Source: an uncultured Bacteroidota bacterium
GTDB taxonomy: Bacteria > Bacteroidota > Bacteroidia > Flavobacteriales > Flavobacteriaceae
Reading direction: 5' to 3'
Length of the DNA stretch: 64,000 nt
Assembly (NCBI GenBank): GCA_902635965.1
Contig: CACPQA010000006.1
Span: forward strand, 1 to 64,000
In this document: in pieces, positions 30,667 to 32,803 of the stretch
How the letters are laid out: the number at the start of each line of letters is the position of its first letter
How positions within the stretch are numbered: position 1 is the stretch's first letter
Notes under the pieces: generated by a model
What the model was told of the DNA's origin: nothing
Database searches by the model: none
Seen by the model: the letters and a program-made list of their open reading frames with translations, nothing else
Made by a program: the position numbers and the translations under genes

Positions 30667-31086
30667 ATGAAGAATTTTTTTATAATTTTAATTTTTTTAA
30701 TTTGCTCTTTTTGTTATTCACAAAGGCCACTAACTGGAGAAAAAATTTTTAAGAAACAATATCCTGTTGAGCAAATAAACAAACTAACAAATGCATCACT
30801 ATTGATTTCAAATACATTAAATGAAGATATAATTCTTACATTAAGAGATGGAGGAAGGCATTACATAACACATGTATACGTGAGAGCTTTCCAAGAATTT
30901 GAAATTGAAGATCTACCTGTTGGTCATTTCGTTTATCAATATCACAATCTAAAGAGATATTATGAATCACCAGAAAGAATCCCAATAGGTTTAAATGAAC
31001 AAGGTTACATTGATTTTTTTTTCTCTGGGGGGGCAACTAAAATAATAGGATTTGAGATAACAAAAGAGGAATTTTTCAAAGAATAA
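30667..31086 (+). CDS. Secreted hypothetical protein
   Basis: A 139-residue exported protein of unknown function, with a signal peptide ending LICSFCYSQ. The mature part (LTNASLLISNTLNEDIILTL, ITHVYVRAFQEFEI) reads like a small all-beta domain, but I recognise no family. A run of seven G is present near its 3' end (codons SGGA). It follows the aldose epimerase by 46 bp on the same strand and may be cotranscribed with it. Confidence 0.6.
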   Translation: MKNFFIILIFLICSFCYSQRPLTGEKIFKKQYPVEQINKLTNASLLISNTLNEDIILTLRDGGRHYITHVYVRAFQEFEIEDLPVGHFVYQYHNLKRYYESPERIPIGLNEQGYIDFFFSGGATKIIGFEITKEEFFKE

Positions 31087-31088
31087 AA

Positions 31089-31268
31089 TTAACTTGAAGG
31101 CTCTAAGAATTTCGTGAATCTGCCATTTTTATCTCGTAACTGTTTTTTCGCCCTTAATTCTTTTGATCTTGCTTCAAGAAATTTTTTTCTAGAATAATAT
31201 TTACCATTTATAAACATTGACTTTACGCCTTCTGGGAAATGATAATTTTCTAGTTTTCTTTTAATCAT
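31089..31268 (-). CDS. Small basic protein, 59 residues
   Basis: An uninterrupted ATG frame of 59 residues below the ORF-track cutoff, with a lysine/arginine-rich sequence (ARSKELRAKKQLRDKNGRF) and no signal peptide. It lies in the gap between a convergent secreted protein and the integrase-like gene, 55 bp downstream of the latter's stop on the same strand. The basic composition suggests nucleic-acid binding, and the RDKNGRF ending resembles short phage-associated peptides, but I can name no family. Coding status rests on composition and position only. Confidence 0.4.
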   Translation of the reverse strand: MIKRKLENYHFPEGVKSMFINGKYYSRKKFLEARSKELRAKKQLRDKNGRFTKFLEPSS

Positions 31269-31323: not shown

Positions 31324-32457
31324 TTAGAGATTTTGATTATAAACAATTGGTCTATTTAAATTAATCCTATTGACAAACTTTTTCGTGTAATATTCTTGTT
31401 TGTGATTTAAAATTTTTGTCAGTTCACCCAGTGAGGGGCTAGAATTTTTTGCTAATTCAGCAAATCCCTCTGATTTCAACAAATAGTTAGCAGCAAAGGT
31501 ATATTTACATGATTTAAATGTTAACTCTTTGAATATACTAGATGAATTGAGCCACTCCCTTAATTTTAAATTTGTATAATATGTTGACTTAAGTTTAAAA
31601 AAAACTTTCCCCCTTACTTTAAGTGGATTTCCAATAAAATCCATTGCCATTCTAGAAATTTTTAATTTATAGATTTCGTTATTTCTATTTAGTTTAATAA
31701 AATAATCTCCTTCAATAAGTTCAAAGTCAAGCCACTCTAATTCTTTTAAATCATTTTCTCCTAACCCTGTTAAACAACCAAATATAAATGCATTCGTAAT
31801 TGAAGGATAAATTGTTTTCGATTTAATTAAAGTATTTATTTCATAAATACTCATAAATTCTTGTAAATCAGTATAATTGCTTTTAATATTAATATTTTTA
31901 CTATAATTATCTTTTATGAGGTTTTCCAAAAAACAAACCTTTATTATATGTTTAAAATGATCGAAATATTGTTTAATAGTTGTGGTCTTTAAAATACCTC
32001 TTGGTGATAAAGGTGCCTCTAATAAATATGTTTTAAATTCATGACAAAATCTTTCATTAATATCTTTAAATACGAGTTTATCTGTTGAAAATGCAAGTAA
32101 ATGGTTAATAACTGGTTTAAAATTTACAGTTTTCGTTTTTGTTTCAGTGAAATTATAAGCCCAGGGGAAGAAAAGTTTTTCAGAATTACTTTTTGATGTC
32201 TCTATTTCTTGGTTATACAAAAAATCAATTCTACGATTAATTAAGTTTTTAGTTTTTTGATTTGCATCTTTCTCGTCTATTGATCTAGGAATTTCATTCC
32301 ATTCAAAATCCAAGTACTCAAACTTATAATTTTGTTTGTATCTCCTTACCAATACCCCTTTTTTATTTATTTTTTTTCCTATATATGAGCTTCCAAAATA
32401 ATGTTTTATGTACCATTTTTTAGCTTTTTTATGGAAATGAGCAGAAAATTTTTTCAA
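31324..32457 (-). CDS. Tyrosine-recombinase-like protein lacking catalytic residues
   Basis: A 377-residue protein with the layout of a Bacteroidota phage-type integrase: Arm-type N-terminus (to about 60), SAM-like core-binding domain (about 110-185) and a catalytic domain. The catalytic positions are substituted. TGLR reads TGLG (Gly 233), the HxxR-H box (usually like FHVARHTFA) reads FKSCKYTFA (Lys 315, Lys 318, Tyr 319), and the position of the nucleophilic Tyr, nine residues after His 352, is Phe 361. So it is probably inactive as a recombinase while still able to bind DNA. Nearby Tyr 356 and Tyr 357 could be proposed as substitutes. It points away from tRNA-Arg, whose 3' end lies 275 bp from its start. 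Confidence 0.75.
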   Translation of the reverse strand: MKKFSAHFHKKAKKWYIKHYFGSSYIGKKINKKGVLVRRYKQNYKFEYLDFEWNEIPRSIDEKDANQKTKNLINRRIDFLYNQEIETSKSNSEKLFFPWAYNFTETKTKTVNFKPVINHLLAFSTDKLVFKDINERFCHEFKTYLLEAPLSPRGILKTTTIKQYFDHFKHIIKVCFLENLIKDNYSKNINIKSNYTDLQEFMSIYEINTLIKSKTIYPSITNAFIFGCLTGLGENDLKELEWLDFELIEGDYFIKLNRNNEIYKLKISRMAMDFIGNPLKVRGKVFFKLKSTYYTNLKLREWLNSSSIFKELTFKSCKYTFAANYLLKSEGFAELAKNSSPSLGELTKILNHKQEYYTKKFVNRINLNRPIVYNQNL

Positions 32458-32464
32458 TTTTTTT

Positions 32465-32490
32465 TTGTTGTAAAAATTAATTTACAACAA
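32465..32490. promoter_or_regulatory. Inverted repeat and candidate promoter just upstream of the integrase-like gene
   Basis: Perfect 10-bp arms TTGTTGTAAA and TTTACAACAA flank a 6-base AATTAA spacer, 8 bp upstream of the start codon. On the minus strand the right arm runs into TATATTTG (32488-32495), a match to the Bacteroidota -7 element, so the repeat would lie at the very start of the transcript. The same TTTACAACAAATATAA stretch recurs upstream of the M48 peptidase gene (from 40829). Confidence 0.4.
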
Positions 32491-32649
32491 ATATAAGATA
32501 ATTAATTATTAGTTTATTCAATAATAACATTATACATATATTAAAATAAATATTTATTAATAATATTAAAATAAAATTTATTTTTGATTAAATTAATAAA
32601 AATCTTCATTTTATTTCTTTTGGCACAGGTTTTGATCTATTTGAAAATG

Positions 32650-32724
32650 AAGTGGGAAACTAAATTCTCTTTTGTACATATTTACACTTTAATTTTTTCA
32701 TGTTTTGGTTATTGTTTCCCACTT
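32650..32724. repeat. 11-bp inverted repeat flanking the tRNA-Arg 3' side
   Basis: AAGTGGGAAAC (32650-32660) and its exact reverse complement GTTTCCCACTT (32714-32724) are separated by 53 bases; the right arm ends 7 bases from the tRNA 3' end. It could form the stem of a tRNA transcript terminator or be a pair of protein-binding sites linked to the integrase. The long spacer makes a simple terminator less likely. Confidence 0.45.
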
Positions 32725-32731
32725 TTTTTTG

Positions 32732-32803
32732 TAGCTCTGACAGGAATCGAACCTGTATCTAAAGTTTAGGAAACTTTTGTTCTATCCGTTGAACTACAGA
32801 GCT
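32732..32803 (-). tRNA. tRNA-Arg (anticodon CCT)
   Basis: A 72-nt tRNA on the minus strand. The acceptor stem is AGCTCTG/CAGAGCT with discriminator A, the D stem GTTC/GAAC, the anticodon stem AAAGT/ACTTT with loop TTCCTAA (anticodon CCT, reading AGG), and the T arm ACAGG-TTCGATT-CCTGT. CCA is not encoded. It is the only RNA gene I found in the window. The short ORF of the track at 32584-32769 ends inside it and is spurious. tRNA-Arg 3' ends are common integration sites, which matters given the integrase-like gene on its 3' side. Confidence 0.95.

Follow-up and report, generated by a model that had tools for sequence, protein, structure and literature searches.

Few proteins of mobile elements are as common as the tyrosine integrases. 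The gene that follows tRNA-Arg(CCT) in the 64-kb stretch of Flavobacteriaceae DNA analysed here (the window) has the layout of such an integrase, and it raises the question why a full-length reading frame has been kept when most of the residues for strand exchange are gone. We refer to its product as the dead integrase. The features of the locus are:

31092 to 31268, minus strand: conserved 59-aa ORF downstream of the dead integrase, on the same strand
31324 to 32457, minus strand: integrase-fold ORF of 377 aa with a TTG start shared by five species; arm-binding domain at about residues 3-57, core-binding domain at about 95-190, catalytic-fold domain at about 200-369
32464 to 32491, minus strand: 28-bp palindrome TTTGTTGTAAA-N6-TTTACAACAAA (11+6+11 bp), candidate operator or arm site
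32488 to 32495, minus strand: promoter-like box TATATTTG, which fits TAnnTTTG
32621 to 32635, plus strand: sigma54-type -24/-12 motif TGGCACAGGTTTTGA, facing the hairpin element
32650 to 32730, plus strand: conserved noncoding hairpin element of 81 nt, candidate small RNA
32731 to 32803, minus strand: intact tRNA-Arg(CCT), presumed ancestral integration target

The 377-aa protein is a three-domain, arm-binding tyrosine recombinase fold of the Bacteroidota type. Pfam identified the integrase SAM-like core-binding domain PF13102 (E = 1.8e-12), PHROGs returned a weak integrase match (1.3e-3) and NCBIfam none; the catalytic domain was missed by Pfam and NCBIfam because its sequence is too changed. 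An AlphaFold2 model calculated from five close sequences only reached a pLDDT of 47, and a model based on the alignment with 38 relatives from viral contigs was used instead (pLDDT 86). Note that its pTM of 0.55 is only moderate, which counts against the explanation that we favor below. The strand-rich arm-binding domain is well predicted in this model, and a Foldseek search against the PDB retrieved XerA, XerH on difH, full-length lambda Int on DNA and Tn1549 Int, with whole-chain TM-scores of only 0.3-0.5, as expected for multi-domain proteins that differ in domain arrangement. As evidenced by PF13102, the full-length alignment, AlphaFold2 and Foldseek, the arm-binding, core-binding and catalytic-fold domains follow each other in order, so that the three-part layout proposed in an earlier note on this DNA is borne out. 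Domain order, predicted fold and an identity of 20-28% link the protein to those Bacteroidota arm-binding tyrosine recombinases that possess a Phage_int_SAM_5 domain and are related to the IntCTnDOT group, compared to which it carries an 11-residue insertion between boxes II and III.

The catalytic columns were read from an alignment of the protein, its four orthologues and the 38 viral-contig relatives. In all 38 relatives they hold R, K, H, R, (H), H and Y, whereas all five orthologues show G/S, R, K, K, (Y), H and F. ArgI has thus become G/S, HisII and ArgII have each become K, the following His is a Y and the Tyr an F. This alignment confirms the changes from TGLR to TGLG, from HxxR-H to K-SCKY and from Tyr to Phe that had been read from the single sequence. 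The earlier list was incomplete, as the beta-hairpin Lys present in 38/38 relatives is replaced by R258 in 5/5 orthologues, and the statement that all catalytic residues are replaced went too far: the box III His (H352) is kept. It is the sole catalytic residue retained, and nothing else remains in any orthologue of the R-K-H-R-H set and Tyr nucleophile of a functional tyrosine recombinase. The loss of ArgI alone is unremarkable, because CTnDOT-type integrases lack this residue, with another arginine substituting for it (PMC8138268). As judged from the aligned columns, however, the joint loss of ArgII, HisII, the hairpin Lys and the Tyr nucleophile is incompatible with known recombinase chemistry. 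Three of the replacements are basic (R258, K315 and K318) and would fit phosphate contacts that are retained without cleavage. One might still look for a recombinase that is active through other residues, for instance through Tyr356, which lies four residues past the retained box III His and is invariant in the five orthologues. We consider this highly improbable, since ArgI, ArgII, HisII and the hairpin Lys are all replaced and Y356 is off the nucleophile position of the 38 relatives.

The earlier note took the gene to be a domesticated integrase, and in related genomes the same protein is indeed found beside tRNA-Arg(CCT). Orthologues at 68-71% identity, all of full length, are present in four congeners (G001, G004, G005 and G006), and the tRNA adjoins the dead integrase in these as in the window species. 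In the window the start codon lies 273 bp from the tRNA 3' end, with both genes on the minus strand. One flank comprises galM, a 139-aa protein and the 59-aa ORF in all five species, and the other a 239-aa protein, a GroES-like protein and nadA wherever the contig extends far enough. In the other two congeners, whose genomes are 65-67% complete, the entire tRNA region is missing. Outside the genus, no orthologue was detected among the 301 family and 398 order genomes sampled. Note that the locus is represented by five genomes only, with MAGs or uncultured-cell assemblies among them, which also counts against our favored explanation. One of the congeners encodes a second integrase (L027, G001:C42) that is apparently of the active type (TGVA, HIGRH, Y) and is not orthologous to the dead one.

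Maximum likelihood estimates of dN/dS for the dead integrase were 0.09-0.13 in unsaturated pairs, indicating strong purifying selection, while dS was saturated in all pairs involving the window species. An omega of 1 was rejected for every integrase pair; for G006-G001, dS was 0.43 and omega 0.11, with an LR of 83.8. Invariant positions among the five orthologues make up 69% of the arm-binding domain and 93% of the altered box II segment. In a tree of 63 sequences, integrases of other Flavobacteriales lie around a single clade (100/100) formed by the five dead integrases, whose stem measures 3.84 changes per column as compared to 0.03-0.29 for the tips. The exact sister group is unsure because this stem is so long. 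As read from the tree, a long stem with short tips is the signature of one burst of change, followed by constraint. A decaying relic of a lost element, caught before stop codons had built up, would be an integrase on its own, with neither an element nor another att copy to be found in 64 kb, as is the case here, and the gene does evolve faster than most of its neighbors; but five full-length orthologues, an omega of about 0.1 and invariant replacement residues make such a relic extremely improbable. With conserved synteny in five species, an omega of 0.09-0.13 and monophyly at 100/100, domestication of the dead integrase is well supported. The earlier claim to this effect is upheld, and the two objections that it had anticipated, an active site intact after all or a neutrally decaying relic, both fail in view of the orthologues by the same tRNA, the purifying selection and the single origin.

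What remains of the element is the integrase and the DNA between integrase and tRNA. With up to 3 mismatches allowed, the 21 bases of the tRNA 3' end were found only at the tRNA itself in the window, so that, other than in an integrated mobile element, the tRNA 3' end is not repeated around cargo genes within 64 kb. Viral contigs scanned with the five orthologues as queries yielded no relative, nor did they contain an exact match to the palindrome or to the core of the hairpin RNA, and the parent element was consequently not identified. The surroundings of tRNA-Arg(CCT) in other genera have no neighbors in common with this locus, so that the empty site is unreadable. On the far side of the integrase, the 59-aa ORF (31092-31268) is unannotated and has no Pfam match, and with an omega of about 0.01-0.02 it is under very strong constraint. 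Distant homologues occur within the family in two further genera (G010 and G026), both without an orthologue of the dead integrase, and the ORF is therefore probably a host gene that marks the far edge of the element. Next to it lies the 139-aa protein (30667-31086, plus strand), with a signal-peptide-like start and no Pfam match; it is nearly genus-restricted among the relatives searched and has a paralogue (G000:C6:68568-68975).

In an alignment of the tRNA-to-start intervals of the five species, the end of the palindrome and the TTG codon are separated by 6 bp in the window and by 6-9 bp in the other species, with conserved arms (a single mismatch in one species) and a variable spacer. Pattern scans allowing up to 3 mismatches gave a single match per genome in all five, and every one of these matches lies at the dead integrase. 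In all five species the TTTG of TATATTTG forms the first four bases of the palindrome. TAnnTTTG is the consensus of the -7 promoter box in Flavobacterium and Flavobacteriaceae (PMC9723704), and part of the conservation of the left arm may thus reflect promoter function.

Operator-like repeats before the start codon are also found in the Bacteroidota arm-binding recombinases. TTTGTTG and CAACAAA occur together in 22 of 37 distinct 120-bp regions upstream of working relatives, as compared to an average of 0.00 in shuffled sequences and 0/1475 background windows, and TTTGTTG forms direct repeats 11 bp apart upstream of these relatives. In two Flavobacteriaceae relatives, GGTGTAAA/TTTACACC palindromes take the equivalent place. 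Such arrays in working relatives provide a testable hypothesis for an arm site or operator; in L097-L131 and L147, TTTGTTG repeats with an inverted CAACAAA stand directly before the start, possibly as a family-wide site of this kind. Relatives whose integrase closely trails another ORF are devoid of the palindrome, and as these include the nearest working ones in the tree (L006-type), simple inheritance of the palindrome is weakened.

A precedent for this arrangement is IntS of KplE1. In IntS and other tRNA-associated integrases the promoter overlaps attL and negative autoregulation occurs via integrase sites, and autoregulation was predicted for 61.5% of the tRNA-integrase pairs analyzed (PMC2951348). 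The locus studied here has the same order of tRNA and then integrase on one strand and a palindrome over the TAnnTTTG box, although as an integrase site the palindrome is a candidate only. IntS is an active prophage recombinase (PMC2951348), whereas the dead integrase has neither the chemistry nor a prophage. From the arrays of the working relatives and the IntS-type autoregulation (PMC2951348), self-repression is probably the ancestral property that has survived.

The reading that is probably correct is a domesticated, DNA-binding former integrase that represses its own gene. It is based on what is established, namely the loss of the residues, the conservation of the protein at full length, the purifying selection, the fixed position and single origin of the gene, and the uniqueness of the palindrome. 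In this scenario the ancestor of a marine Flavobacteriaceae genus would have acquired an element at the 3' end of its tRNA-Arg(CCT), and all of that element except the integrase gene and the regulatory DNA on the attL side would have been lost. Strand-exchange chemistry would have disappeared in a single burst, and the protein would then have been retained as a sequence-specific DNA binder. Its conserved arm-binding domain is proposed to bind both TTTACAACAAA half-sites in the palindrome lying across the integrase promoter; there the bound protein would repress its own gene and may also shape the adjoining intergenic region. Binding of the protein to the palindrome, repression by this binding and a benefit to the host are what we infer. 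The regulatory role suggested in the earlier note accordingly finds indirect support in two features, the overlap of palindrome and promoter and the comparable arrays that precede the genes of working relatives. If the reading is true, self-repression of an integrase can outlive recombination, and a mobile element need not be present wherever an integrase adjoins a tRNA.

The retained arm-binding and core-binding domains, the basic residues at active-site positions and the missing nucleophile would also suit a protein that sits on att or arm sites at tRNA-Arg(CCT) and prevents the recombination of incoming elements that use this tRNA, or poisons it as an inactive subunit, and wherever the locus is present the protein does still adjoin the tRNA that is its likely target. 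We regard such a guarding function as rather unlikely, since the palindrome is found only at the protein's own promoter, the 21 bases of the tRNA 3' end occur once in the window, and in the few other genera inspected no integrase relative lies beside tRNA-Arg(CCT).

Few matches on dead or domesticated tyrosine recombinases were retrieved from the literature, and the DNA-binding cases found were TnsF and ALOG. TnsF, the target selector of Tn6022-like Tn7 transposons, has an inactivated tyrosine-recombinase domain that is kept for DNA recognition (PMC10293859). It carries zinc fingers, is transposon-borne and targets comM (PMC10293859), whereas the dead integrase stands alone on the chromosome and has an arm-binding domain. 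In the ALOG plant regulators a tyrosine-recombinase DNA-binding domain has been turned into a predicted regulator (PMC3537659). The dead integrase differs from both in being a solo, chromosomal, full-length integrase, and from the Bacteroidota arm-binding recombinases in its five catalytic replacements in every orthologue, the lack of an element and its vertical inheritance.

The intergenic region holds a second conserved feature, the hairpin element, with a per-column identity of about 96% across the five species, much higher than that of the intergenic DNA around it. It consists of a terminal stem of 11-13 bp, a 50-nt loop and a T8 tail, and its end abuts the 3' end of the tRNA, which is encoded on the other strand. 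In the stem 95% of cells are paired, with one compensatory change; this does not suffice as proof of an RNA. The element folds better than shuffled sequences (z about -3). The possibility of an intrinsic terminator on the tRNA strand was discarded, as the T run is on the other strand only, and a standard terminator scan finds nothing here because of the 50-nt loop, which would be unusual for a terminator. Rfam reported only the tRNA over the region and no family for the element, and in 400 family genomes a covariance model of the hairpin gave matches in this genus only. The 60 bp before the hairpin contain the conserved blocks TGGCA and TTTG(C). TGGCAY-N5-TTGC, at -27 to -29 from the stem, is present in four of the five species, with TTGA in the window, and GG-N10-GC is at the right distance in the same proportion (4/5), with a GA variant in the window. 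RpoN and sigma54 enhancer-binding proteins are encoded in all 7 congeners. The element is probably an undescribed small RNA and, with its conserved hairpin and -24/-12 motif, a candidate sigma54 small RNA of uncultured marine Flavobacteria, but it could instead be protein-binding DNA.

The hairpin element and the dead integrase are linked by their common intergenic region and genus. This raises the question whether the protein mainly controls the RNA, in that, bound to the palindrome about 170 bp upstream of the RNA start, it would aid or block looping by an enhancer-binding protein. Palindrome and RNA element are both found only in the genus, at this locus, the -24/-12 motif is conserved, and RpoN and its activators are present. 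The connection is one of linkage alone, however, with a distance that is compatible but not specific and a -12 box in the window that reads GA rather than GC, and we hold this explanation to be doubtful. It is likewise a tentative thought, with the odds against it, that the tRNA-Arg(CCT) locus is a single chromosomal regulatory unit made up of dead integrase and sigma54-dependent small RNA, with the palindrome-bound protein controlling both the RNA and its own gene.

Elsewhere in the window, positions 6272-29447 encode a SusC/SusD pair and several glycoside hydrolases (GH20, GH2), and this region looks like a polysaccharide utilization locus for amino-sugar glycans.
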